Assembly (NCBI GenBank): GCA_027493945.1
Contig: JAOSJU010000002.1
Coordinates: 248,001 to 312,000, forward strand
DNA from: Burkholderiaceae bacterium
GTDB taxonomy: Bacteria > Pseudomonadota > Gammaproteobacteria > Burkholderiales > Burkholderiaceae_E
Reading direction: 5' to 3'
Length of the DNA: 64,000 bases
The translations under genes were made by a program, and so were the position numbers. Below, piece by piece: positions 5,190-17,917 of this stretch. Each line of letters begins with the position of its first letter. The stretch's first letter is position 1. The notes under the pieces are model-generated. The model searched no databases. It was given only the letters and a program-made list of their open reading frames with translations, and was not told where the DNA came from.

Positions 5190-7901
5190 TCAGGCGTGGT
5201 GCGGATTGGTCTTGGACGGGTCGATTCCGTACTTGCGGACCGCCTCGGCAACCTTCTTCGCCGTGATGACCCCCTCCTCGGCCAGCGACTTCAGCGCCGC
5301 GACCGCCACGAAGCGGCGATCGACCTCGAAGTGCTCGCGCAGCCGGTAGCGGAAATCGGAGCGCCCGAAGCCATCGGTGCCGAGCACGTGGTAGCCGCGG
5401 CCCCGCGGCAGGAACGGGCGGATCTGGTCGGCGAAGATCTTCATGTAGTCGGTGGACGCGACCAGCGGCCCCTGGGTCTTCTCGAACAGTTTCGCGACGT
5501 ACGGCTGCTTCGGCTTGTCGGCCGGGTGCAGCAGGTTCCAGCGCTCGCAGTCGAGGCCGTCGCGGCGCAGCTCGGTGAAGCTGGTGATGCTCCAGACGTC
5601 GCCCGCGACGCCCCAGTCCTGTTCGAGCATCTCCGCGGCGGCGAGCACCTCGCGCAGGATCGTGCCCGAGCCGAGCAGCTGCACCCGATGCTCGGCCTTC
5701 TTCGCGCCGGGGCGCAGCAGATAGCCGCCGCGGACGATGCCCTCCTCGTCGCCCTTGCGCAGCCCCGGGTGCGCGTAGTTCTCGTTCATCATGGTCAGGT
5801 AGAAGTAGACGTTCTGCTGCTCCTGAACCATGCGCTTCAGGCCGTGGTGGATGATCACCGCCACTTCGTGCGCGAAGGTCGGGTCGTAGGAGACGCAGTT
5901 CGGGATGGTCGAAGCCAGCACGTGGCTGTGGCCGTCCTGGTGCTGCAGACCTTCGCCGTTCAGCGTGGTGCGACCGGCCGTGCCTCCCAGCAGGAAGCCG
6001 CGCGCCTGCATGTCGCCGGCGGCCCAGGAGAAGTCGCCGAAGCGCTGGAAGCCGAACATCGAGTAGTAGGTGTAGAAGGGAATCATGATGCGGTCGTTCG
6101 TCGAATACGACGTCGCCGCGGCGAGCCACGAGCAGAACGCTCCCGCCTCGTTGATGCCCTCCTGCAGGATCTGCCCGGCCGCGTCCTCGCGGTAGTACAT
6201 CACCTGGTCCTTGTCGACCGGCGTGTACTTCTGCCCTTCGGGCGCGTAGATGCCGAGCTGGCGGAACATGCCTTCGAGGCCGAAAGTGCGCGCCTCGTCG
6301 GGCACGATCGGCACCACCCGCGGCCCGAGCGTCTTGTCGCGGGTGAGCGCGGTGAGCACGCGCACGAAGGCCTGCGTGGTCGAGATCTCGCGCCCTTCGG
6401 CAGTGGGTTCGAGCACTGCCTGGAACATCTCGAGGCCGGGCACCGCCAGCGTCTCGCTCGCGCGCCGCCGCCGCTGCGGCAACGAGCCGCCCAACGCACG
6501 ACGCCGCTCCATCATGTACTTCATCTCCGGGAGTTCCGGATCGGGCATGTAGAACGGAATCTCGTCGAGGCGCTCGTCCGGAATCGGGATGCTGAAGCGA
6601 TCCCGGAACATGCGAATCGACTCCGCGTCGAGCTTCTTCAACTGGTGCGTCGGGTTCTTCGCTTCGCCCGCGTGGCCCAGCCCGTAGCCCTTCACCGTCT
6701 TGGCCAGGATCACCGTGGGCTGCCCGCGATGGTGGTAGGCCGCGTGGAATGCCGCGTAGACCTTGTGCGGGTCGTGGCCGCCGCGGTTGAGCCGCCAGAT
6801 GTCCTCGTCGGTCATCCGCGAGACCATCTCGAGCAGCTTCGGGTGCTTGCCGAAGAAGTGCTTGCGCACGAACGCGCCGTCGTTGGCCTTGTAGGCCTGG
6901 TATTCGCCATCGACGGTCTCCATCATCACTCGCTGCAGGATGCCGTCCTTGTCGCGGGCGAGCAGCTTGTCCCAGTAGGAGCCCCAGATCAGCTTGATCA
7001 CGTTCCAGCCCGAGCCGCGGAAATCGCCTTCGAGCTCCTGGATGATCTTGCCGTTGCCGCGCACCGGGCCGTCCAGGCGCTGCAGGTTGCAGTTGATGAC
7101 GAAGATCAGGTTGTCGAGCTTCTCGCGCGAGGCCAGGCTGATCGCGCCCAGCGATTCGGGCTCGTCCATCTCGCCGTCGCCGCAGAACACCCAGACCTTG
7201 CGGTTGCTGGTGTCGGCGATGCCGCGCGCGTGCAGGTACTTCAGGAAGCGCGCCTGGTAGATCGACATCAGCGGGCCCAGGCCCATCGACACCGTCGCGA
7301 ACTGCCAGAACTCGGGCATCAGGTTCGGGTGCGGGTACGACGACAAACCCTTGCCGCCGACCTCCTGGCGGAAGTGGTCGAGTTGCTCCTCGGTGAGTCG
7401 CCCCTCGAGGAATGCGCGACCATAGAAACCCGGCGCCGAATGCCCCTGGAAATAGACCAGGTCGCCGCCGTGCCCCTCGTGCGGCGCGTTCCAGAAGTGG
7501 TTCATGCCGGTGCCGATCATCGTCGCCAGCGACGCGAACGAGGCCAGGTGGCCGCCGAGGTCGCCGCCGTCGGGCGGGTTGTGCCTGTTCGCGCGCACCA
7601 CCATCGCCATCGCGTTCCAGCGGATGAACGAGCGGATGCGCTCCTCGTAGGCGGCGTTGCCCGGCGAGCGGGCTTCCAGGTGCGCCGGAATCGTGTTGAC
7701 GTAGGCGGTGTTCGCCGAGAACGGGATGAAAGCACCCGAGCGGCGCGCCTTCTCGATCATCCGTTCGAGCAGGAAGTGCGCGCGCTCCGGCCCTTCGCGG
7801 TCGATGACCGCCTCCAGCGAGTCGAGCCACTCCTGCGTCTCGACGGCGTCGGCGTCCTGCGGGTCGTTGGCGGCCAGCGGCCGCGACGGAAGCGCTGACA
7901 T
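5190..7901 (-). CDS. aceE: Pyruvate dehydrogenase E1, homodimeric type
   Basis: Thiamine-diphosphate-dependent E1 that decarboxylates pyruvate and acetylates the E2 lipoyl group. At 903 residues it has the full length of the homodimeric proteobacterial type. Visible landmarks include NTIPAHLEARSPGN near the N-terminus, the diphosphate/Mg site GDGEMDEPESLGA, and SWLAAATSYSTND with FYTYYSMFGFQR in the pyrimidine domain. ATG at 7901 was chosen because AGAGGAG lies 6 bases upstream; the frame is open 22 codons further but without a ribosome site. First gene of the aceE-aceF-lpdA operon, with a promoter 38 bases upstream. Confidence 0.97.
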   Translation of the reverse strand: MSALPSRPLAANDPQDADAVETQEWLDSLEAVIDREGPERAHFLLERMIEKARRSGAFIPFSANTAYVNTIPAHLEARSPGNAAYEERIRSFIRWNAMAMVVRANRHNPPDGGDLGGHLASFASLATMIGTGMNHFWNAPHEGHGGDLVYFQGHSAPGFYGRAFLEGRLTEEQLDHFRQEVGGKGLSSYPHPNLMPEFWQFATVSMGLGPLMSIYQARFLKYLHARGIADTSNRKVWVFCGDGEMDEPESLGAISLASREKLDNLIFVINCNLQRLDGPVRGNGKIIQELEGDFRGSGWNVIKLIWGSYWDKLLARDKDGILQRVMMETVDGEYQAYKANDGAFVRKHFFGKHPKLLEMVSRMTDEDIWRLNRGGHDPHKVYAAFHAAYHHRGQPTVILAKTVKGYGLGHAGEAKNPTHQLKKLDAESIRMFRDRFSIPIPDERLDEIPFYMPDPELPEMKYMMERRRALGGSLPQRRRRASETLAVPGLEMFQAVLEPTAEGREISTTQAFVRVLTALTRDKTLGPRVVPIVPDEARTFGLEGMFRQLGIYAPEGQKYTPVDKDQVMYYREDAAGQILQEGINEAGAFCSWLAAATSYSTNDRIMIPFYTYYSMFGFQRFGDFSWAAGDMQARGFLLGGTAGRTTLNGEGLQHQDGHSHVLASTIPNCVSYDPTFAHEVAVIIHHGLKRMVQEQQNVYFYLTMMNENYAHPGLRKGDEEGIVRGGYLLRPGAKKAEHRVQLLGSGTILREVLAAAEMLEQDWGVAGDVWSITSFTELRRDGLDCERWNLLHPADKPKQPYVAKLFEKTQGPLVASTDYMKIFADQIRPFLPRGRGYHVLGTDGFGRSDFRYRLREHFEVDRRFVAVAALKSLAEEGVITAKKVAEAVRKYGIDPSKTNPHHA

Positions 7902-8066: not shown

Positions 8067-8344
8067 CTAGTGTCGTGAGTTGCAAATACGTGGCGTCGAG
8101 ACGGGTCGAAACGGGGCGGGAACAAGGCGCGCGAGCGGGTCGATACCGGGTGGTATCGACCCGCTTGCGTAACGCAGTGCCCGCCCCGTTTCGACCCGCC
8201 CCGAAGGGGTTCGACCAGACGGCGCCCTCGCACGCCCGACCGCCATGGCAGATACCACCCGGTATCTGCCATGGCGGATCGGCCGCACGATCATCACCGT
8301 CTGGTCGAATCTCGACGCCACGTATTTGCAACTCACGACACTAG
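8067..8344. repeat. Cloverleaf inverted-repeat element A (MITE-like)
   Basis: A 278-bp element with perfect 35-bp terminal inverted repeats (8067-8101 and 8310-8344), both ends reading CTAG outward. Inside are two separate stem-loops. The first has outer arms 8103-8120/8180-8197 and an inner hairpin 8135-8164 with loop GGGT. The second has outer arms 8210-8222/8297-8309 and an inner hairpin 8240-8277 with loop ACCC. The two loops are complementary, and the 16-base cores at 8142-8157 and 8251-8266 are reverse complements. No transposase gene is inside. TA at both borders (cacTA / TAggt) fits a TA duplication of the IS630/mariner kind. It ends 20 bases before the sensor-kinase ATG. Confidence 0.85.
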
Positions 8345-8364
8345 GTACACTGCCTGATCGCGCC

Positions 8365-11169
8365 ATGAAAACGCCGAACGACCCTTCGACCCGACGTGCC
8401 GAGATGCGCGCCATCCGCTGGCTGTCGCTCACGCACGCGTTCGGAATCGGCCTGTTCGCGCTGCTGATGGCCAGCTTCTTCTGGTACCTGCGCGAGGTCG
8501 AGGTCGACCAGCAGAAGCAGGCCCTCTATCGCGACGTGGCCAGCGCGCAGACCGCGCTGCGCCGCGAACTGCGCGACGACCAGGACGAGGTCGGCCTGGT
8601 CGCCGAAGAATGGATGACGCGCGCGCGCCGCAGCCCGGGCGCCGCCGCCAAGGCGGTCGAAGACTTCCTCGCGCGCCGCATGTCGGCGGTCTACGTGGCG
8701 CTGGTCGACGCCGACGGGCGGGTCCTGTGGTCGGGGCACGCCCGCGGCGTGGTGCCGATCGGCACGCGTGCGCGCGGGGCCTCGATCACCGACGCGGCCG
8801 GGGTCGAGGCGCTCGACGAGATCCGGCAACGCCAGCGGCCCGTGTTCACACGGCCCTTCTCAAGCCCCGCCAGCGACGTGCTGGTCGAACTGCACGCGCC
8901 GATCTACGACGACTCCGGCTTCACCGGGGCGGCGATCGTCGGCTACTCGCTGAACCGCATGCTCGGCGGCTCGCTGCTGCAGACGATCCGCGACCGCTAC
9001 CAGTTGTCGATCGTCGATCGCGACGGCAACAACCTGGTCAGCTCGTCGCTGTTCGAGATCGACCTCGCGCACCTGAGCTACGAGCTGCCGCTCGATCCGC
9101 CGGGCCACGGCGTGAGGCTGCGCGCCTTCGCGTACGACATGCAGCCGCACCTGATCGACCGCTCGCTGGTGGCGGCGGTCATCGGCCTGTCGCTGGCGAT
9201 CCTCGCCACGCTGATGATGCTCTGGCGTCACGCACGCCGGCGCCTGTTCGCCGAATACGAGCGCGACCGGCTGTTCACGCTGTCGCCCGACCCGCTGTGC
9301 GTGTTCGAGCTCGACGGCACGCTGGTGCGCGGCAACCCCGCGTTCGAAAGCGTGCTGGGCGCCGGCGAGCGGCGCCGGCGCATCGACCGCTGGGTGCACC
9401 CCGACGACCGCGTCCAGGTGACGACCGCATTGGCGCAGATCGCCGAGCCGGGCGCGAGCTCGGCGAGCTTCGAGGCGCGCTTTCGTGCGCGCGATCCGTC
9501 GCACGCGATCCGGTCGGGCACCGGCTTCGAGGCGGCGGGCGGCATGCCGACCGACGCGTCGGCGCCACCCACGGTGTGGCGCTGGCTGCACTGGTCGCTG
9601 CGCCGCGACGCCGACGCCGAAGCGCCGCGCCCGCTGCTCTACGCCGTGGCGCGCGACGTCACCGAGCGGCGCAACGCCGAGCTCGCGCTGGCGGCACAGA
9701 CCGCCTTCCGCGAAGCGATGGAAGACTCGATGCTCACCGGCATGCGCGCCTTCGACATGGACGGGCGCATCACCTACGTCAACCGCGCGTTCTGCCGGAT
9801 GGTCGGCTTCGAGGCGAGCGAACTGGTCGGCTCGCTGCCGCCCTACCCGTACTGGCCGCCCGGAAGCACCGAGGCCAACCACGAAAACCTGGCACGCGTG
9901 CTGCGAGGCGACATGCCTCCCAGCGGCTTCGAGGTGAAGGTCAGGCGCAAGGACGGCTCGCTGTTCGACGCGCGGATGTACGTCTCGCCGCTGATCGACC
10001 GCCGGGGCCGCCAGACCGGCTGGATGACCTCGATGACCGACGTCACCGAGCCCAAGCGCATCCGCGAGCAGCTGGCCGCGGCCCACGAGCGCTTCACCAC
10101 GGTGCTCGACGAGCTCGACGCGGCGGTGTCGGTGGTGGCGCGGCCGCTCGACGGCAGCGCCGACCACGCCGAACTGCTGTTCGCCAACCGCATGTACCGT
10201 CGGCTCTTCGGCGCCGACAGCCGCCGCCACGAATCGCTGCTCGCCACCCGCGACATCGATGTGCCCGACGGTCCGACCGAGATTTTCGACGCCACGCTCG
10301 GGCGCTGGTTCGAGGTGCGCAGCCGCCAGATCCGCTGGGTCGACGGCAGCGCGGTCGAGATGCTGGTGGCCACCGACGTCACGCGCCGGCGCGACATCGA
10401 GGAGCAGCAGCGCGAGCAGGAGCGCAAGCTGCAGCGCACCGCGCGGCTGGTGACGATGGGCGAGATGGCCTCGTCGCTCGCGCACGAGCTGAACCAGCCG
10501 CTCACCGCGATCGCCAACTACTGCATGGGCCTGTCGGCGCGCATCCGCGCGCGCGCGGCCGCCGGCGAGTCGATGCCGGCCGACGAGCTCCTCGCGCCGC
10601 TGACCAAGACCGCGGCGCAGGCGGCGCGCGCCGGTGAGGTGATCCGGCGCATCCGCAACTTCGTCAAGCGCAGCGAGCCCGAGCGGCGCCGCTGCGAGAT
10701 CGCCGCGATCGTCGCCGACGCGGTCGGGCTGGCCGAGATCGACGCGCGCCGTCTCGGCATCCAGGTGGTTACCGAAATGCCCGCCGAGCTGCCGCCGCTC
10801 TATGCCGATCCGATCCTCATCGAGCAGGTGCTGCTGAACCTGCTGAAGAACGGCATCGAGGCGATGCGCGACGCACCCGCCGATCGCCCGCGCGTGGTCA
10901 GGCTCGCGGTCGAGCTGGCCGACGGCCACGCCGAGTTCAGCGTCACCGACCACGGCAACGGACTGCCACGCGACGCGCGCGAACGGCTGTTCGAGCCCTT
11001 CTTCACCACCAAGGCCGAGGGCATGGGCATCGGACTGAACATCTGCCGCTCGATCGTCGAGTCGCACAAGGGCCGCCTGTGGGCCGAGAGCCCCGCGGCC
11101 GGCGGCTGCAGCTTCCGCTTCACGCTGCCGATGGCCTCCCGGGTACCCGCCGTCGCCGACACCGCCTGA
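8365..11169 (+). CDS. PAS-containing membrane sensor histidine kinase
   Basis: A 934-residue hybrid-free sensor kinase. The order is membrane helix 1 (about 18-40), a periplasmic sensing region (about 45-265), membrane helix 2 (about 268-290), at least two PAS domains and probably a third, a HisKA domain with phospho-acceptor His707 in SLAHELNQPLTAI, and a HATPase domain with NLLKNGIEAM and GMGIGLNICRSIVE. The HELNQPL box is typical of the FixL/DctS/TodS group, which pairs with LuxR-type regulators such as the next gene. The ATG at 8365 lacks an obvious ribosome site; a TACACT box at 8346-8351 may be a -10 element. Signal unknown, perhaps an organic acid. Confidence 0.9.
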   Translation: MKTPNDPSTRRAEMRAIRWLSLTHAFGIGLFALLMASFFWYLREVEVDQQKQALYRDVASAQTALRRELRDDQDEVGLVAEEWMTRARRSPGAAAKAVEDFLARRMSAVYVALVDADGRVLWSGHARGVVPIGTRARGASITDAAGVEALDEIRQRQRPVFTRPFSSPASDVLVELHAPIYDDSGFTGAAIVGYSLNRMLGGSLLQTIRDRYQLSIVDRDGNNLVSSSLFEIDLAHLSYELPLDPPGHGVRLRAFAYDMQPHLIDRSLVAAVIGLSLAILATLMMLWRHARRRLFAEYERDRLFTLSPDPLCVFELDGTLVRGNPAFESVLGAGERRRRIDRWVHPDDRVQVTTALAQIAEPGASSASFEARFRARDPSHAIRSGTGFEAAGGMPTDASAPPTVWRWLHWSLRRDADAEAPRPLLYAVARDVTERRNAELALAAQTAFREAMEDSMLTGMRAFDMDGRITYVNRAFCRMVGFEASELVGSLPPYPYWPPGSTEANHENLARVLRGDMPPSGFEVKVRRKDGSLFDARMYVSPLIDRRGRQTGWMTSMTDVTEPKRIREQLAAAHERFTTVLDELDAAVSVVARPLDGSADHAELLFANRMYRRLFGADSRRHESLLATRDIDVPDGPTEIFDATLGRWFEVRSRQIRWVDGSAVEMLVATDVTRRRDIEEQQREQERKLQRTARLVTMGEMASSLAHELNQPLTAIANYCMGLSARIRARAAAGESMPADELLAPLTKTAAQAARAGEVIRRIRNFVKRSEPERRRCEIAAIVADAVGLAEIDARRLGIQVVTEMPAELPPLYADPILIEQVLLNLLKNGIEAMRDAPADRPRVVRLAVELADGHAEFSVTDHGNGLPRDARERLFEPFFTTKAEGMGIGLNICRSIVESHKGRLWAESPAAGGCSFRFTLPMASRVPAVADTA

Positions 11170-11193
11170 AAACCTGTGTCATCCTTGCGCCCC

Positions 11194-11864
11194 ATGAGCA
11201 CCAGTCGTTCTCCCGAACCCGCGCATCTCGAGAGCCCGCCCGCCGGCGCCGCGGGCCTGGTCTACGTCGTCGACGACGACGAAGCGGTCCGCGACTCGAT
11301 GCGCTGGCTGCTCGAAGCCAACGGCTTCCGGTGAGCACCTTCGCCAGCGCCGAGGAGTTCCTGGCGCGCCTGCCCGACCCCGAGCCGGTCGCCTGCCTGC
11401 TGCTCGACGTGCGCATGCCCGGCATGTCGGGGCTCGAGCTGCACGAGGAGCTGGTGCGCCGCGGCTCGGCGCTGCCGCTGATCTTCATCACCGGCCACGG
11501 CGACGTGCCGATGGCGGTATCGCGGATGAAGAAAGGCGCGCACGACTTCCTCGAAAAACCGTTCAGCGACGTGCAGCTGCGCCAGCTGGTCACCGATTGC
11601 CTGGCCCGCGCGGCGGCCGCGCAGCGCGATTTGCACAGCGACCGCGACGCCAGCGTGCGCATCGAGCGGCTCACCGGGCGCGAGCGTCAGGTGCTCGAAC
11701 TGATTGTCGCCGGCCGGCTGAACAAGCAGATCGCCGACGACCCGGGCATCAGCATCAAGACGGTGGAAGCGCACCGCGCCAACATCATGGACAAGCTGGG
11801 CGCGCGCACCATGGCCGACCTGATGCGCATCGCGCTCAGGGCCGGCGCTTCGCGCGCGAACTGA
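11194..11864 (+). CDS. FixJ/LuxR-family response regulator (frameshifted)
   Basis: Partner of the upstream kinase. The receiver begins LVYVVDDDEAVRDSMRWLL, with the phospho-Asp in LLLDVRMPGMSG and the Lys in HDFLEKPFSD. A LuxR-type DNA-binding domain follows (LTGRERQVLELIVAGRLNKQ, then ISIKTVEAHRANIMDKLGA). The frame breaks at about 11331, where EANGFR runs into a stop; restoring one G in the GG before TGAGC gives EANGFRVSTFASAEEFL. The break is thus probably a lost base. It starts 24 bases after the kinase. Its 3' end overlaps the convergent tungstate regulator by 29 bases. Confidence 0.88.
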
Positions 11865-12852
11865 CCGGCTCGTAGCCCGGCGTGGAGCGAGCGCGCGTGC
11901 GCAGCGCGCGCACCAGCGCCTTCACCGCCGGCACCTCCGCCAGCGAGCGCGCGCCGCAGAGGTAGTACAGCTCGGTGCCCACCGGCACGAACGAGAGGCC
12001 GAACTGCGAGGCGGCGGCGCGCAGCCCGAAGCCGGCGTCGGCCGCGCCGGCGGCGACCGCCGCCGCCACCGCGAAGTGCGTGAACTCCTCGCGCTCGTAG
12101 CCGCGAATCTGCCGCGGCGCCAGGCCACGCTCGGCGATCAGGCGGTCGAACCAGGCACGCGTGGCCGCGCCGCGCTGGCGGTTCACGAAACGCAGCCCGG
12201 TGCGTGCGAGGTCCGCCACGTCTTGCACGCGCAGCGGATTGCCGCGCGCGACGATCAAGCCCTGCTCGCGCCGCATCACCGCTTCGACGAACAGCCGCGC
12301 GTCGCGAAACGGCGCCGGGCGCAGGCGCAGCGGCGGCAGCGGCTGCGGCAGGTGAAAGCCCGCCAGCTCGGCCTGCCCGGCCGCGAGGGCGGCCAGCGCA
12401 TGCTCGGAGCCCATGAAGCGCACGCCGATGCCGCCGGCCTCGTCGGCCGACAGCGCCTCCTGCAGCAGCAGGTCGTGACTGGCGGCCAGCCGCAGCGCCG
12501 GCGCCGCGGCAGCCCGCGGCAGCGCATCGAGCACCGCGGCCATTGCATCGGCCGGCCCGGCCAGCCGGCGCGCGGCCTCGCGCTCGAAGCGGGCGCCGGC
12601 GCGAGCCAGCGCCGCGCCGGCCTCGGTGAGGCGGCTGCCGTGCCCCTTGACGCGCTCGACCAGCGGCACCCCGAGCAGCCGCTCGGCGCGCACCAGCTTG
12701 CCCCACGCGTTGCGATAAGAAACTCCCAGTGCCGCGGCGGCCGCGCTGACCCGCGGCACGGCCTCCAGTTCGCACAACAGCCGCGCGAGCCCGGACAGGT
12801 CGAGCGACTCGTCGCCGACGTTCAACGCAATGCCATGAACGAGCCGAAGCAT
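11836..12852 (-). CDS. LysR/ModE-type HTH regulator with substrate-binding-like domain
   Basis: A 338-residue regulator with an N-terminal winged helix of the ModE/LysR sort (AAAAALGVSYRNAWGKLVRA, about residues 35-60) joined to a periplasmic-binding-protein-like sensor domain (about 110-320, PBP_like type). Proteins of this build are usually found next to molybdate or tungstate transporters. Here the gene is divergent from tupBCA with only about 50 bases between, so it most likely senses tungstate or molybdate and controls that operon. That role is inferred from context. The shared AT-rich spacer (12850-12900) is the likely operator region. Confidence 0.8.
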   Translation of the reverse strand: MLRLVHGIALNVGDESLDLSGLARLLCELEAVPRVSAAAAALGVSYRNAWGKLVRAERLLGVPLVERVKGHGSRLTEAGAALARAGARFEREAARRLAGPADAMAAVLDALPRAAAAPALRLAASHDLLLQEALSADEAGGIGVRFMGSEHALAALAAGQAELAGFHLPQPLPPLRLRPAPFRDARLFVEAVMRREQGLIVARGNPLRVQDVADLARTGLRFVNRQRGAATRAWFDRLIAERGLAPRQIRGYEREEFTHFAVAAAVAAGAADAGFGLRAAASQFGLSFVPVGTELYYLCGARSLAEVPAVKALVRALRTRARSTPGYEPVSSRAKRRP

Positions 12853-12899
12853 CGAAACTCCATATATGCAATCGAATTCCTATTGAATCATGCGGCTGC

Positions 12900-13619
12900 G
12901 TGATTGCCTATACTGTGGCGGTGTTTACGCAATCGCTCGTGCAGGCGATCGGCCTGCTCCAGTCCTTCGAGAGCGACGTCCTCGAGATCGTCGCGCTGTC
13001 GCTGCGCGTGAGCCTCACCGCCGTGACCATCGCCACGCTCATCGGGTTGCCGCTGGGCGCACTGGTAGCGGTCGCGCGGTTCCCCGGGCGAAGCGCCGCG
13101 GTGGTACTGCTGAACACCTTCATGGGTCTGCCGGCGGTCATCGTCGGCGTCACGGTCTACCTGCTGCTGTCGCGAAGCGGCCCGCTCGGCTCGCTCGGCC
13201 TGCTGTTCACCCCGTCGGCGATGATCGTCGCCCAGACCTGCCTCACGCTGCCGCTGATCGCCGCGCTTGCGCGCCAGACGGTCGAGGATGCCTGGCGCCA
13301 GCACGGCGAGACGCTGCGCTCGTTGCGCGTGCCGATGGCCGCGCGCGTGCGCGTGCTGCTGTGGGACTGCCGCTTCTCGCTGGTGGCCGTGGTGCTGGCG
13401 GGGCTCGGCCGGGCCATCTCGGAAGTGGGCGCGGTGATGATCGTCGGCGGCAACATCGACCGCGCCACGCGGGTGATGACCACTGCCATCGCGCTCGAGA
13501 TCAGCAAGGGCGACATGGCGCTGTCGATCGCGCTGGGCATCGTGCTGATGAGCCTCGTGCTCGCGCTCAACATCCTCGCCAGCGGCGTGCGCGCCGCGGC
13601 CATGCTGCGCCATGGCTGA
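12900..13619 (+). CDS. tupB: Tungstate ABC transporter permease
   Basis: Inner-membrane permease of a TupABC tungstate importer. About five to six membrane helices are visible, with the ABC-contact loop around EDAWRQHGETLRSLRVP and ISEVGAVMIVGGNI, both characteristic of TupB. The start is uncertain. GTG at 12900 opens the frame, but GTG at 12921 (VFTQSLVQAIG) fits family length better, and a TATACT box lies at 12909-12914. The last 8 bases overlap tupC, so the genes are translationally coupled. Confidence 0.88.
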   Translation: MIAYTVAVFTQSLVQAIGLLQSFESDVLEIVALSLRVSLTAVTIATLIGLPLGALVAVARFPGRSAAVVLLNTFMGLPAVIVGVTVYLLLSRSGPLGSLGLLFTPSAMIVAQTCLTLPLIAALARQTVEDAWRQHGETLRSLRVPMAARVRVLLWDCRFSLVAVVLAGLGRAISEVGAVMIVGGNIDRATRVMTTAIALEISKGDMALSIALGIVLMSLVLALNILASGVRAAAMLRHG

Positions 13620-14352
13620 GCCGCTGCTGCGCCTGCGCGCGGTGTCGTTCCGCCCCACCGGGCGCACGGTGCTCGACGATATCGACTTCGAATGGGACGA
13701 CAGCGTGCGCGTGTGCGCGCTGATCGGCCCCAACGGCGCCGGCAAGTCGGTGATGCTGCGCACCGCGCACGGCCTGCTCGAACCCGACTCGGGCGAGGTG
13801 CGCTTCGAGGGACGCCCGCCTCCCGGCAAGGGCCTGGCCTTCGAGGGACAGGCGCTCGTCTTCCAGCACCCGTCGCTGTTTCGCGGCAGCGTGCTGGAGA
13901 ACCTGCTTCTGGTGCCCGATCCGCGCGGCCGCTCGCGAGGCGACCGGCGCGAGCGCGCGCTGCAGATGCTCGACCGCGTGGGGCTGCGCTCGCTCGCCGG
14001 CGCGCCCGCGCTGAAGCTCTCCGGCGGCGAGCGCCAGCGACTCGCACTCGCCCGCGCCTGGCTCACCGAGCCGCGACTGATGCTGCTCGACGAACCCACT
14101 GCGAGCCTCGATCCATCGGCCACCGACCAGGTCGAGCAGCTGATCGGCGACATCCGCGCCAGCGGCTGCCAGGTGCTGATCGTCTCGCACAACCTGGGCC
14201 AGGCCGCCCGACTGGCCGACGAAGTGGTGTTCATCCATCACGGCCGGCTGCTCGAGCGCCAGCCCGCCGCCGCGTTCTTCGATCGTCCTCGCACCAGCGA
14301 GGCCCGCCACTTCCTTCAAGGAGCCCTGCCATGGCAACTGACCGCCGCCTGA
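13612..14352 (+). CDS. tupC: Tungstate ABC transporter ATPase
   Basis: ATP-binding subunit of the tungstate importer, 246 residues. Walker A is GPNGAGKS, the Q-loop lies in LVFQHPSLF, the signature is LSGGERQRLALARA, Walker B is LMLLDEPTASLD and the switch His is in IVSHN. It overlaps tupB by 8 bases and tupA by 22 bases. The gene order permease-ATPase-binding protein is unusual, since tupA is usually first. Function is well supported by its two neighbours. Confidence 0.9.
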   Translation: MAEPLLRLRAVSFRPTGRTVLDDIDFEWDDSVRVCALIGPNGAGKSVMLRTAHGLLEPDSGEVRFEGRPPPGKGLAFEGQALVFQHPSLFRGSVLENLLLVPDPRGRSRGDRRERALQMLDRVGLRSLAGAPALKLSGGERQRLALARAWLTEPRLMLLDEPTASLDPSATDQVEQLIGDIRASGCQVLIVSHNLGQAARLADEVVFIHHGRLLERQPAAAFFDRPRTSEARHFLQGALPWQLTAA

Positions 14353-15188
14353 CCCCACAACCGAGGAGACGCCTCGCCGCCCTCGCCGGCGCGATGCTGC
14401 TCGCCGCCGGCCTGGGCGCCGCCGGCGCCGCGCAGGCACAGACCTCGATCACCGTCGCGTCGACCACGTCGACCGAACAGTCTGGCCTGTTCAAGCACCT
14501 GCTGCCCGCGTTCGAGAGCAAGACCGGCATCCAGGTGAAGGTCGTCGCGGTAGGCACGGGCCAGGCGCTCGACATCGGCCGGCGCGGCGACGCCGACGTG
14601 GTCTTCGTGCACGACGCGAAGGCCGAGGAGAAGTTCATCGCCGAGGGCGCGGGCGTGAAGCGCTTCGAGGTGATGTACAACGACTTCGTGCTGGCGGGCC
14701 CGAAGAGCGACCCGGCGAAGATCGCCGGCGGCAAGGACATCCTCGAGGCGCTGCGCCGCATCGCGGCCGCGGGTGCCCCGTTCGCATCGCGCGCCGACCG
14801 CAGCGGCACGCACGCCGCCGAGCTGCGCTACTGGCAGGCCGCCGGCGTCGACCTCGCCCCCGGCAAGGGCAAGTGGTACAAGGAAACCGGCTCCGGCATG
14901 GGCCCGACGTTGAACACCGCCGCCGGCATGAACGCCTACGTGCTCACCGACCGCGGCACCTGGCTGTCGTTCAGGAACCGCGGCGACCTCGCGATCCTGG
15001 TCGAGGGCGACAAGCGGCTCTTCAACCAGTACGGCGTGATGCTGGTGAACCCGCAGAAGCACCCGCAGGTGAAGAAGGAAGCCGGCCAGAAGTTCATCGA
15101 CTGGCTGGTCTCGGCCGAAGGCCAGGCGACGATCGCCGGTTACAAGGTGAACGGCGAGCAGCTGTTCTTCCCGAACGCGGCGCATTGA
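14331..15188 (+). CDS. tupA: Tungstate-binding periplasmic protein
   Basis: Binding protein of the tungstate importer, 285 residues. A signal peptide (Arg-rich start, hydrophobic core AALAGAMLLAAGLGAAG, cleavage after AQA) is followed by VASTTSTEQSGLF, the TTS(T) anion-binding signature of TupA. Further landmarks are RRGDADVVFVHD, SRADRSGTHAAEL and YVLTDRGTW. ATG at 14331 has AAGGAG 7 bases upstream. It overlaps tupC by 22 bases. With tupB, tupC and the divergent regulator it forms a complete tungstate uptake system, which points to tungsten or molybdenum enzymes in this organism. Confidence 0.93.
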   Translation: MATDRRLTPQPRRRLAALAGAMLLAAGLGAAGAAQAQTSITVASTTSTEQSGLFKHLLPAFESKTGIQVKVVAVGTGQALDIGRRGDADVVFVHDAKAEEKFIAEGAGVKRFEVMYNDFVLAGPKSDPAKIAGGKDILEALRRIAAAGAPFASRADRSGTHAAELRYWQAAGVDLAPGKGKWYKETGSGMGPTLNTAAGMNAYVLTDRGTWLSFRNRGDLAILVEGDKRLFNQYGVMLVNPQKHPQVKKEAGQKFIDWLVSAEGQATIAGYKVNGEQLFFPNAAH

Positions 15189-15205
15189 GGATCGGGCGCG
15201 CGTGC

Positions 15206-15211
15206 TATACT
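15206..15211 (+). promoter_or_regulatory. -10 box of the tRNA-Arg gene
   Basis: TATACT stands 10 bases before the tRNA. A TTGAGG at 15185 could be the -35, but the spacer is short (15). Confidence 0.5.
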
Positions 15212-15221
15212 GCGCGGCTTA

Positions 15222-15298
15222 GCGCCCGTAGCTCAGTTGGATAGAGTACCTGGCTACGAACCAGGGGGTCGTGGGTTCGAATCCTGCCGGGCGCGCCA
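15222..15298 (+). tRNA. tRNA-Arg (ACG)
   Basis: A full 77-base cloverleaf with encoded CCA. The acceptor GCGCCCG pairs with CGGGCGC, the D arm is GCTC-AGTTGGATA-GAGT, the anticodon stem is CCTGG/CCAGG with loop CTACGAA (anticodon ACG, read with inosine), and the T arm is GTGGG-TTCGAAT-CCTGC with weaker pairing. It decodes CGU/CGC/CGA arginine codons. A terminator follows directly, then gene debris, which suggests the 3' end has served as an integration site; no second copy of the tRNA end was noticed. Confidence 0.97.
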
Positions 15299-15308
15299 GT
15301 CAAATCAA

Positions 15309-15335
15309 GGGGTTAGCTAGAGCTAGCCCCTTTCT
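15309..15335 (+). terminator. Intrinsic terminator after tRNA-Arg
   Basis: Stem GGGGTTAGCT / AGCTAGCCCC (one G-U pair) is followed by TTTCTCTTT. It ends the single-gene tRNA transcript. Confidence 0.85.
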
Positions 15336-15360
15336 CTTTCTGGCCGGGCCAACAGGCGCG

Positions 15361-15380
15361 GAATTACCCCGGGGTAATTC
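15361..15380. repeat. Perfect 20-bp palindrome
   Basis: GAATTACCCCGGGGTAATTC is perfectly self-complementary and lies between the tRNA terminator and the gene fragments. It may be a protein-binding site or a recombination scar. Confidence 0.6.
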
Positions 15381-15393
15381 GCCTCCGACGTGA

Positions 15394-15540
15394 GAGGTTC
15401 CTGCAGGTGCAGGCGCTCGAGGCCTCGGTGCATCGGTGATGGGCGCGTTCGACGAGGCGCGCACGGCGGAGTTGTTGCGCCTGCCGGCGAACGAGAAGGC
15501 CCTCTACCTGATGCCGGTCGGCCGCCGTGCGAGTCCCTGA
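15394..15540 (+). pseudogene. C-terminal fragment of a nitroreductase-family gene
   Basis: About 48 codons without a start. They read GARGLGASVMGAFDEARTAE, then a stretch ending LYLMPVGRR and a stop. This is the last part of a nitroreductase/SagB-type oxidoreductase: the GLGA...GAFD turn and the final LPxGxxxLYLMPVG strand. The rest of the gene is missing upstream, so it is a remnant. It lies between tRNA-Arg and an insertion-sequence fragment, in line with repeated insertion and loss here. Confidence 0.65.
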
Positions 15541-15731
15541 CCTGGCCTGCCGGGTGGGCGGTACGGGGCGCGCCGCATCCCGCCGTAGAGCTTCTTCCAG
15601 CGGCTGAAGGTCAGCGGCGAAATCCCGAGCCGGCGGATCAGCTCGGCCTCGGGCGTGCCCGCCTCGGCCTGGCGCAGGGCGGCTACGATCTGCTCGATCG
15701 AGAACCTGCGCCTCGTCACGTCGAACCACAT
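15504..15731 (-). pseudogene. IS3-family OrfA fragment
   Basis: The reading RRRFSIEQIVAALRQAEAG, followed by ELIRRLGISPLTFSRWKKLYGGM, is the helix-turn-helix of IS3/IS911-type OrfA transposase proteins. In intact elements a leucine zipper (ELKRLKELEEEN-like) comes next. Here the frame drifts into unrelated sequence and ends, and no OrfB is present. A truncated copy with no visible IS ends. It overlaps the end of the nitroreductase remnant on the other strand. Confidence 0.75.
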
Positions 15732-15754
15732 GCGTGCCTGCCTGCGTCCGCCGA

Positions 15755-15838
15755 TCAGCGCGAACCGTGCCGCCACAGGACGAAGACCAGCCAGAACACG
15801 GCAAGCAGGATGTAGAGATTCCAGTCGGCCCCTTGCAT
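15755..15838 (-). CDS. 27-residue single-helix membrane peptide
   Basis: The peptide MQGADWNLYILLAVFWLVFV, then a short basic end LWRHGSR. Nearly all of it is one membrane helix. GGAGGG stands 8 bases before the ATG, a better ribosome site than most genes here, so it may be translated. It may equally be the start of a membrane protein gene cut by the neighbouring IS3 fragment, which begins 24 bases downstream. Function unknown. Confidence 0.4.
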   Translation of the reverse strand: MQGADWNLYILLAVFWLVFVLWRHGSR

Positions 15839-16016
15839 CGCTCTTCCCTCCTCGCCCGAACGTGACCGGGCGCCATGTCGGCCCCAGGTCGAGCGTGGGC
15901 TCCGGGAGACGCGGCGCTGCGCAGCGACAGTCGGAACTTCCGTCGACCGATTGTCGCCAAAAATGCGCCGTTCGGCGGTCGAGCGACAGGAACTACGTCA
16001 CCCCGCGCCGACCGGG

Positions 16017-16634
16017 CTAGAAGTGCATCGACAGGCCGATCAGCGCCTCGCCTTGCGTGAAGGTGTCGCCCTTGATCGTGACCATGCAGCCGCCCGAGCA
16101 GAACAGGCCACCCTCGCTGTTCACGAGCGTGAAGTACGCGCGCGCCTCGAAGCGCAGCGCCACGTTCGCGGCAAGCGGCAACTGGTAGCCGAGGCCGAGA
16201 CTCATCGACGGGCGCCATTCGCTCGAGTAGCCGCTCGGGCCCGGGCTGAACTGCGTCGCCCCGAAACCGCCGGCCACGTAGGGGCCCCGGCCGATCGGAC
16301 CGCCGAAGAAGTTGGTGCCGCCGATGTGCAGGTAGGTCACCGAAATGGACCGGCCGTTCAGGGTCGCCGCCGCCGAGCCGGGCGGCGCGCCGACCTCGAA
16401 CTTCGAGCCCCGGTGTGAGACGAAGAACTGCACCTGGCGGCTGGCGTCCACCGCGAAGTCGAAGCTCGCAGCGATGCTGCCCGAGGCCTTCACGTCGATC
16501 GACTGTCCGGTGTCGACGTCGGTGAATCCGCCGGTGCTGCGATAGCCGCCGTAGAGCGTGATCGCGTTGTCGGCCGCGAGGGCAGCGAGGGGCGACATCG
16601 CGATCGCCGCAGCCAGGATCGTCATCGAACGCAT
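16017..16634 (-). CDS. Outer-membrane beta-barrel protein
   Basis: A 205-residue protein with a clear signal peptide (MTILAAAIAMSPLAALAA) and alternating hydrophobic/polar strands ending in the C-terminal Phe (ALIGLSMHF) typical of outer-membrane barrels. It resembles small OmpW/porin-like barrels; one Cys pair sits near residues 183-187. Ligand unknown. The start codon is immediately next to inverted-repeat element B: transcription from upstream must run through that element, and no Shine-Dalgarno sequence remains before either candidate ATG (16634 or 16625). Confidence 0.75.
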   Translation of the reverse strand: MRSMTILAAAIAMSPLAALAADNAITLYGGYRSTGGFTDVDTGQSIDVKASGSIAASFDFAVDASRQVQFFVSHRGSKFEVGAPPGSAAATLNGRSISVTYLHIGGTNFFGGPIGRGPYVAGGFGATQFSPGPSGYSSEWRPSMSLGLGYQLPLAANVALRFEARAYFTLVNSEGGLFCSGGCMVTIKGDTFTQGEALIGLSMHF

Positions 16635-16903
16635 TAGGGCCTGTTCACACTACGATCGTCCCCGCGTGAGTCCGAAAAAAGCGCGCAATCAAGGCGCAAA
16701 GCGCAGCCGTGGCGGGGCCACGGCGAGCATTTGCAACGCGGAGTGCGCGCTTTTTTCGCACTCACCCTCCGGGCCGGGGCCTGCCGGGCCGCCACACTTC
16801 GTTGCCGGCTCCTTGCGTGGCACCGCCACGCGCGTCGCCGGCGCCTCGTTTGGCGGCCCGGCAGGCCCCGGCGCGGGGACGATCGTAGTGTGAACAGGCC
16901 CTA
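16635..16903. repeat. Cloverleaf inverted-repeat element B (MITE-like)
   Basis: A 269-bp element with perfect 32-bp terminal inverted repeats (16635-16666 and 16872-16903). Two long stem-loops lie inside. The first has arms 16666-16687/16744-16765 (22 bp, one mismatch) enclosing hairpin 16706-16724. The second has arms 16773-16794/16851-16872 (22 bp, perfect) enclosing hairpin 16815-16831. The plan is the same as element A at 8067-8344, though the bases differ. TA stands at both borders (catTA / TAgtc), as expected for a TA target duplication. There is no coding capacity for a transposase. It separates egtD from the barrel gene and abuts the latter's start codon. Confidence 0.85.
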
Positions 16904-16945: not shown

Positions 16946-17917
16946 TCAATCGGCATCATCGGGCGCGGCTGCGCTCGAAGCCCCGTTCCACGTCGCCGGC
17001 CGCGCCATCAACACCGCAAACCAGTCGCGCTCGTCGGTCCAGCTCGCCTGCAACCCGAGTCCCGCACGCCCGAGCAGCGCGGCGAATTCGTCGAGCCGGT
17101 ACTTGTACGAGTTCTCGGTGTGGATCCGCTCGCCGGCGGCGAAGCGGCGCTCGCCGCCTGGCCAGCTCACGCGCAGGGCGCGGCGCGCCTCCAGGTGCAT
17201 CTCGATGCGGCTGTGCGTCGCATCGAAGAAGGCGACGTGGCGCCAGTCGGCCAGCACGAAATCGGTGCCGGCGATCCGGTTGGCCCTGCGCAGCACGTTG
17301 AGGTTGAACGCCGCCGTCACGCCGAGCGGATCGTCGTAGGCGGCCTGCAGCGTGGCGGCGTCCTTCACCAGGTCGATGCCGATCAGCAGTGCGCCGGTGT
17401 CGTCGAGTTGGGCGCGCAGTCCGGTGAGGAAGCGCTGCGCTTCGTCGGGCGTGAAGTTGCCGATCGACGAGCCCGGATAGAAGTACAGGCGCCGCTCGCG
17501 CGCAATGCGCGCGGGCAGCTCCAGCGGTCGCGTCAGGTCGGCGCCGACGCCGGTCATCACGACATTCGGGAAGCGCCGCTGCAGTGCCTCGAGCGATTGC
17601 CGCAGGTAATCGACCGAGATGTCGACCGCAACGTACTGGCGCGGACGCAGCGCCCCGAACAGGCCGGCCGCCTTCTCGCCGTTGCCGGCGCCCAGGTCGA
17701 TCAGCGTGCAGCCCTCGCATCCGAACGCGGCGGCGATCTCGCGTTCGCGCGCGCGCAGGATCGCGCGCTCGGTGCGCGTGGGGTAGTACTCGTCGAGCTC
17801 GGTGATCGCGTCGAAGAGCGTCGAGCCCAGCGAGTCGTAGAAGAACTTCGGCGCGATCCACGCGCGCGGCGCGCGCAGTCCGGCGAGCAGCGCGTCGCGC
17901 TCCGGATCGGAGGGCAT
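16946..17917 (-). CDS. egtD: L-histidine N-alpha-methyltransferase (ergothioneine)
   Basis: Methylates histidine three times with S-adenosylmethionine to give hercynine, the first step of ergothioneine synthesis. At 323 residues it has the family length. The SAM site is LIDLGAGNGEKA; other landmarks are PKFFYDSLGSTLFDAIT at the N-terminus, YFYPGSSIGNFTP, GIDLVKD and FNLNVLRRAN. ATG at 17917 was chosen because it overlaps the stop of the preceding gene (TGATG). It is the third gene of the egtB-VOC-egtD operon. Confidence 0.95.
   Translation of the reverse strand: MPSDPERDALLAGLRAPRAWIAPKFFYDSLGSTLFDAITELDEYYPTRTERAILRAREREIAAAFGCEGCTLIDLGAGNGEKAAGLFGALRPRQYVAVDISVDYLRQSLEALQRRFPNVVMTGVGADLTRPLELPARIARERRLYFYPGSSIGNFTPDEAQRFLTGLRAQLDDTGALLIGIDLVKDAATLQAAYDDPLGVTAAFNLNVLRRANRIAGTDFVLADWRHVAFFDATHSRIEMHLEARRALRVSWPGGERRFAAGERIHTENSYKYRLDEFAALLGRAGLGLQASWTDERDWFAVLMARPATWNGASSAAAPDDAD

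Follow-up and report, generated by a model that had tools for sequence, protein, structure and literature searches.

Why do two palindromes whose sequences differ share one architecture within a single stretch of bacterial DNA, and what maintains it? A first-pass annotation of a 64,000-nucleotide stretch from a Burkholderiaceae genome (the whole stretch analysed, hereafter the window) had described two palindromes of 270-280 bp with nested internal hairpins, perfect ends of 32-35 nt and TA at their borders, lying directly upstream of coding sequences, and had proposed a MITE or a mobile leader. Both elements, here called A and B, were located in the window as palindromes of the type A-B-B'-C-C'-A' (Table 1), each enclosing two nested hairpins and folding far beyond expectation (z = -22.2 for A and -17.5 for B against 200 dinucleotide shuffles, none of which folded as well). 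The described size fits A, and B proves slightly shorter. The terminal arms of A extend over 48 nt (8067-8114 against 8297-8344) at 88% identity, with the outer 35 nt at 100%. Both elements are short, multi-copy, flanked by terminal inverted repeats and devoid of a transposase gene, so their description as MITE-like stands. An Rfam search of the window returned one tRNA above the gathering score and no known RNA family at A or B; a tRNA-Arg(acg) gene lies about 1.3 kb before B. The likely reading, in our view, is that A and B belong to a single structural superfamily of MITEs (non-autonomous DNA transposons) that share a chassis and are moved in trans.

Table 1. Features of elements A and B and of neighbouring genes, in window positions
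Feature	Position	Strand	Remarks
Element A with CTAG borders	8067..8344	.	4 full genome copies, 97-100% identical
Element A proper, flanking target letters excluded	8070-8341		272 bp
A left terminal inverted repeat	8067..8101	+	35 nt, no mismatch to 8310-8344
A right terminal inverted repeat	8310..8344	-
A arm 1, foot motif CNAGGC-stem-AACGNNG	8123..8177	+	53 nt inside element
A arm 2, hairpin tip	8240..8277	+
Element B with TA borders	16635..16903	.	18 full or nearly full genome copies, 90-100% identical
Element B proper, flanking target letters excluded	16637-16901		265 bp
B left terminal inverted repeat, GGGCCTGTTCACACTA.., IS5-type end	16635..16666	+	32 nt, 100% with 16872-16903
B right terminal inverted repeat	16872..16903	-
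B arm 1, hairpin H1	16684..16748	+	covariance model R1, 86.7 bits (sequence itself a member of R1); foot motif 16690-16741
B arm 2, hairpin H2	16797..16848	-	same foot, 53 nt inside right end
aceE	5190-7901	-
PAS sensor kinase	8365-11169	+
tRNA-Arg(acg)	15222-15298
Weakly OMP-like ORF, under its cut-off	16017-16634	-
egtD	16946-17917	-

The ends of B point to the enzyme that may move it. Searching for PF13340 (DUF4096) transposases and their flanks in 26 genomes (own and relatives), 4 of which have them, yielded an element of 833-839 bp with inverted ends in two genomes of the same genus, G014 and G004 (loci L295 and L296; CTAGGGCGTGTTAACACTAA in L296), and the end of B, GGGCGTGTTCACACTA, agrees with that of this IS5-type element at 15 of 16 letters. 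Its first frame matches PF13340 at 78.1 bits, over the cut-off, and NF033580 (IS5 family) at 107.2 bits, just under the cut-off of 110; its second frame matches PF01609 at 47.2 bits, over the cut-off. This partner is presumably a member of the IS427 group. Because the ends of B match those of an IS whose frames match these profiles, B is best read, as far as such matches reach, as an IS5-type MITE, and the IS630 connection that had been suggested for it falls away. For A, no second paired element with A-like ends was found in its own genome. Allowing up to 3 mismatches, the ends of A give one match each in four others among 300 genomes of the order, which is about the level of the three control matches, the ORFs at these four loci having been judged by eye without a profile; the own genome holds 8 DDE_3 matches, and the fetched DDE_3 loci contain no A-like end within 3 mismatches. 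IS630-type enzymes choose CTAG, and CTAG stands at both borders of A in all four copies; an IS630-type origin for A may be proposed by analogy only.

The borders of B are less uniform. TA flanks the window copy on both sides, as annotated, whereas of the 39 B-type elements in the fetched loci whose flanks differ from one another, only 18 have TA at both borders, 11 have it on one side and 10 on neither; in several, the right border adjoins an IS110 element. Six B copies that border IS110 or a remnant of it were omitted from the list of joined flanks. From this list the window copy was taken for an empty-site search, in which none of 18 genomes of the genus kept both flanks. A repeated IS110-family element (assigned by an NF033542 match, with genes scanned in L111) lies exactly at one end of B in 5 of the 18 copies (L111, L114, L121, L123 and L124), as though the end of B were its target, and in L118 an end of B is joined to the apparent other end of the same IS110-family IS. 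The own genome (4.28 Mb in 4 contigs, 88.8% complete) also contains 7 single A-like ends beside the 8 ends of the four A copies, against 4 control matches; near position 4001 of L135, L136, L137 and L138 stand solo A ends of 17-53 bp with no second end, three of the four in exact CTAG context. One B copy (L045:1501-1767) has its second arm inverted in place, 98% identical to the reversed arm, and a B-type element at L159:2931-3202 is nested in the tip loop of a different hairpin element. A plasmid search returned no copy of B, and partial matches to one single-hairpin element in 6 plasmid records.

What unites A and B lies inside these ends. An asymmetric foot, CNAGGC-stem-AACGNNG, is common to arm 1 of A and the two arms of B; its first C stands exactly 53 nt inside the element end, target letters not counted, in A (plus strand) and in B (both strands); arm 2 of A lacks the motif, a scan of its minus strand giving no match. 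The idea that structure is kept while sequence differs is therefore right for the fold and too sweeping for the letters, since foot and end distance are identical in A and B. The same 53 nt recurs in three of four single-hairpin elements checked in the own genome, L147 giving no match to the strict pattern. In 369,297 bases the foot pattern turns up 54 times outside elements, once together with a strong hairpin. Two further kinds of element in the own genome repeat stretches of B arm 1, the third kind (family C) at 88% over 65 bp and the fourth at 78-83% over 47-61 bp; both are single hairpins of 159 bp with ends other than those of B.

To follow this hairpin further, a covariance model (R1) was built from 30 hairpins, window B included and A excluded; its members were picked by an exact 34-letter pattern, so that the inner letters of H1 are over-represented. 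A scan for the exact core pattern, one genome per species, gave at least 111 stretches; among the matches listed most are Burkholderiales by title, 30 of the 111 coming from one Rhizobacter MAG, and the listed titles also include one Pseudomonadales, one Acidobacteria and a few given as Proteobacteria only. R1 itself has 38 matches in the own genome, 36 in G002 and 29 in G023, and matches 27 of 61 genomes (own and relatives). Across the order it matches 50 of 300 genomes, own included, in 35 of 134 genera and 25 families. These matches sit in palindromes with many different ends, the end types having been counted by eye without clustering. Element ends could be set in 38 of 49 hand-picked loci: 22 elements measure 150-168 bp (16 of them 160-163), 3 measure 193-197 bp and 13 measure 252-274 bp. 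Counted from the edge of the inverted repeat, and so possibly with target letters included, the distance from end to foot is 54-57 nt in 29 of the 38 and 52-59 nt in 33. At seven loci with other elements R1 matches twice, once on each strand; the two matches are separated by 106-107 nt at six of these loci and by 203 nt at one. Tandem hairpins at a spacing of about 122-135 bp occur in other genera (L352, L356 and L096).

A itself gives no match to R1 at E 0.05 (locus L001), and neither do the A-like loci L092 and L100; the other three of five A-like loci do match (L096 at E 3e-8, L088 at 0.002, L089 at 0.004). On foot, spacing and these matching relatives, A may be grouped with B. The failure of R1 on A itself could instead be taken to mean that A and B are ordinary MITEs, internal-deletion products of two ISs whose likeness is mere convergence, as any palindromic MITE would fold so. 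MITEs with TA borders and stable folds are indeed common (PMC4133298, PMC10969869), and for B an autonomous partner exists. Convergence would, however, have to place one and the same foot exactly 53 nt deep in two arms of B and one of A, do so again in single-hairpin families with third and fourth kinds of end, and yield the R1 hairpin in 25 families of the order. Nor is the hairpin a retained part of the autonomous element: H1 was considered as a piece of the IS5 element, and R1 finds no match in L295 or L296 and three weak, chance-level matches elsewhere. We regard an origin as ordinary MITEs, alike by convergence only, as quite unlikely.

The pairing of the hairpin is maintained while its letters change. 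In 56 aligned hairpins, both-side changes occur in 20 of 22 pairs, cells are paired in 91.4% of cases against 30-38% for slid structures, and double-change cells number 309 against 99.3 +- 8.2 in shuffles; in 30 hairpins the corresponding count is 82 against 24.8 +- 4.6. The unpaired foot is nearly fixed in the same 56 (AGGC in 53-55 per letter, AAC in 53-56, the closing G in all 56). Compensatory changes among copies, which the first-pass annotation had named as a check, are likewise present in B: among 25 copies (17 of the own genome's 18, all but L039, plus 8 from relatives), 50 of 113 pairs are changed on both sides against 13.5 +- 2.6 in shuffles, with 133 double-change cells against 25.8 +- 4.1. 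All these counts are inflated by relatedness, and alignments A2 and A3 were fitted to the R1 structure. G-U pairs account for 43 of 148 non-Watson-Crick cells, or 23 of 78 without the three most departing pairs, and mutation in single steps, at a transition bias between 2 and 4, would yield 25-33%. Because paired letters change together and G-U pairs are few, at about the level of single mutations, it is probably on DNA and not via RNA that the pairing is maintained, whether one arm corrects the other or selection acts on the hairpin.

Covariation of this kind might also be expected if the elements were mobile RNA leaders or 3' elements whose fold acts in neighbouring transcripts as a terminator, a stabiliser or a blocker of the ribosome site. 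In the window the placement looks suggestive: A ends 20 bp before the ATG at 8365 (+), and B touches the ATG of the ORF at 16017-16634 (-). This upstream position holds for the two window copies and not for most others, with genes called by a self-trained codon model (80% coding in the window). The element edge completes a stop codon in 2 of the 4 copies of A and in 5 of the 18 of B; because the first letter of either element is a G that follows TA, the codon formed is TAG. A third copy of A is at a frame that is still open where it is cut, others are intergenic, and start codons are nearby in a minority. The 4 A and 18 B copies thus show no consistent place upstream of starts. Among harmless sites (stop or intergenic) in 390,272 bases of the own genome, stops make up 18 of 59 CTAG, 77 of 1026 TA and 55 of 113 CTSAG sites. 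Only B is clearly in excess at stop codons (p 0.009), a point in favour of a role in RNA; A (2 or 3 of 4; p 0.09, reckoned for 3 of the 4 copies) and the single-hairpin copies of the own genome (7 of 10, p 0.15) have no clear excess. Stop-codon targeting as a special mechanism was considered and set aside, the target motif and the loss of harmful insertions largely explaining the pattern, B excepted.

Single-hairpin relatives (L182-L292) have symmetric ends, yet their insertions at TCA keep to one strand: among 76 elements, exact duplications are TCA/TCA in 38 and TGA/TGA in 4, all four of the latter from one Rhizobacter MAG. This orientation, too, would suit an RNA element, as would the frames at these sites. 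In a count that kept the 46 of 113 hairpins with an exact duplication, 37 lie on a TGA that ends a frame open for at least 100 codons, compared with 82 of 460 random TGAs. Open frames are nevertheless a weak sign, because the DNA is GC-rich and the shifted frame is open at 28 of the same 46 sites; in addition, 12 TCA elements end no long frame, against fewer TGA ones (small numbers). With few G-U pairs and copies of A and B varying in position, a function in RNA appears unlikely, and the mobile leader was abandoned as the main reading of these elements.

The strand-specific TCA insertion, together with an imperfect hairpin that has a fixed foot and a bulge and occurs once or twice in opposite orientation, also recalls REP/REPIN-like systems, in which a Y1 (RAYT) transposase acts on single-stranded hairpins, and the hairpin-rich genomes G022, G017 and G060 do have one or two Y1 matches. 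Yet the own genome, G002 and G023, with the R1 counts given above, have no Y1_Tnp match (own and G023 are incomplete), and no R1 match lies beside 29 of 30 fetched Y1 loci (L381 left out). With Y1 genes absent or unlinked to the hairpins, membership in the REPIN/RAYT systems was rejected, and we think such an origin highly improbable. An attC-like site was considered on shape only and not adopted.

If A, B and their relatives are MITEs of one superfamily, how did they come by such different ends? The end of L429 matches 16 of 17 letters of the end of an own-genome PF13340 element, L293 (L297 and L301 alike), and that of L426 matches 22 of 26 letters of the end of a DDE_3 (IS630-type) element, L310, while A-like ends beginning TAGTGTC.. 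carry the hairpin in L349, L420, L433 and L434. A single ancestral MITE could have been inherited vertically, its ends diverging along with its transposases and with no exchange between IS5-type and IS630-type ends; many ends do begin alike, as G[AG][GA][CG][CG]TGT by eye. This would require drift between the ends of unrelated enzymes, DUF4096 (IS5-type) and DDE_3 (IS630-type), and B arm 1 and family C are 88% identical over 65 bp under unlike ends in the same genome. Vertical descent of this kind is therefore rather unlikely in our judgement, and we infer from the sequences that ends were probably exchanged and did not simply diverge on an inherited chassis. The occurrence of the same hairpin design under unrelated ends, and in many families of Burkholderiales, suggests that the core persists while the transposon ends responsible for its movement change. 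More tentatively, and as a conjecture that could well prove wrong, what is really inherited may be the hairpin module, independent of any one transposase and living as a parasite on transposition: it would take up IS5-type, IS630-type and other DDE ends in turn, its 53-bp arms and foot being fixed by a putative host factor or replication step that acts on the extruded DNA hairpin.

The superfamily reading can be put as a working model. The chassis consists of a 53 bp terminal stem that starts with the end of some DDE transposon, followed by a hairpin with an asymmetric foot in which CNAGGC lies opposite AACGNNG; many members also have a second internal loop (GCA/GA) and a bulged A. With one hairpin the element comes to about 160 bp, and with two in opposite orientation to about 265-275 bp. 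The transposase whose ends an element bears would move it in trans, presumably an IS5-type enzyme for B and an IS630-like CTAG enzyme for A, with duplication of TA, and ends would be exchanged between families while the chassis stays. Pairing would be kept up on DNA, by correction from arm to arm or by selection on the extruded hairpin, and a host factor that handles the hairpin is perhaps the reason for this upkeep. The copies that persist would be those whose insertion is harmless, in intergenic DNA or at stop codons.

MITEs are usually regarded as deletion derivatives of one IS (PMC4133298, PMC10969869). One architecture with a fixed foot and spacing, under many ends and across 25 families, contrasts with that view. 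If ends are exchanged, a small element outlives its transposases, and a host function for long palindromes may be the reason. As a practical consequence, R1 would annotate many unexplained intergenic palindromes in Burkholderiales. TA-bordered MITEs are already well known; a shared chassis under unrelated ends appears to be unreported. A literature search, mainly of open-access papers, found no report of one, and searches with six stretches of element letters returned only papers unrelated by title. Neither Burkholderia nor hairpin is mentioned in the main text of the 2024 review PMC10969869, and new stem-loop families in bordetellae are mentioned in PMC2267715.

Several known systems share parts of this design. 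With the MITEs of IS630/Tc1-mariner elements, A has in common the CTAG at both borders of all its copies; it differs in that no autonomous partner was found and in having the foot and spacing of an IS5-type MITE. That group includes RUP and cyanobacterial MITEs. In Neisseria, a related group, the Correia elements (CREE/NEMIS) are mobile and measure about 105-155 bp; by description they resemble A and B in their palindromic form and TA borders. REPINs and BIMEs with RAYT likewise place many conserved hairpins in a genome, either singly or as opposed pairs, whereas elements of the A and B type are far longer, have long terminal repeats and occur with Y1 genes absent or unlinked. B corresponds to the ISs and MITEs of the IS5 family (IS427 type) in its ends, in its TA/CTAG setting and in having a partner whose two frames match PF13340 and PF01609; a two-frame transposase and TA duplication characterize the IS427 group (PMC4133298). 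The interior of B sets it apart, being a two-hairpin chassis common to other end types and without an R1 match in L295 or L296. Finally, TIMEs are Tn3-derived miniature elements of 262 bp that resemble A and B in their constant length and in their presumed mobilisation in trans, and differ in their Tn3-type ends of 38 bp, in duplications of 5-6 bp and in usually being present as a single copy (PMC4133298).
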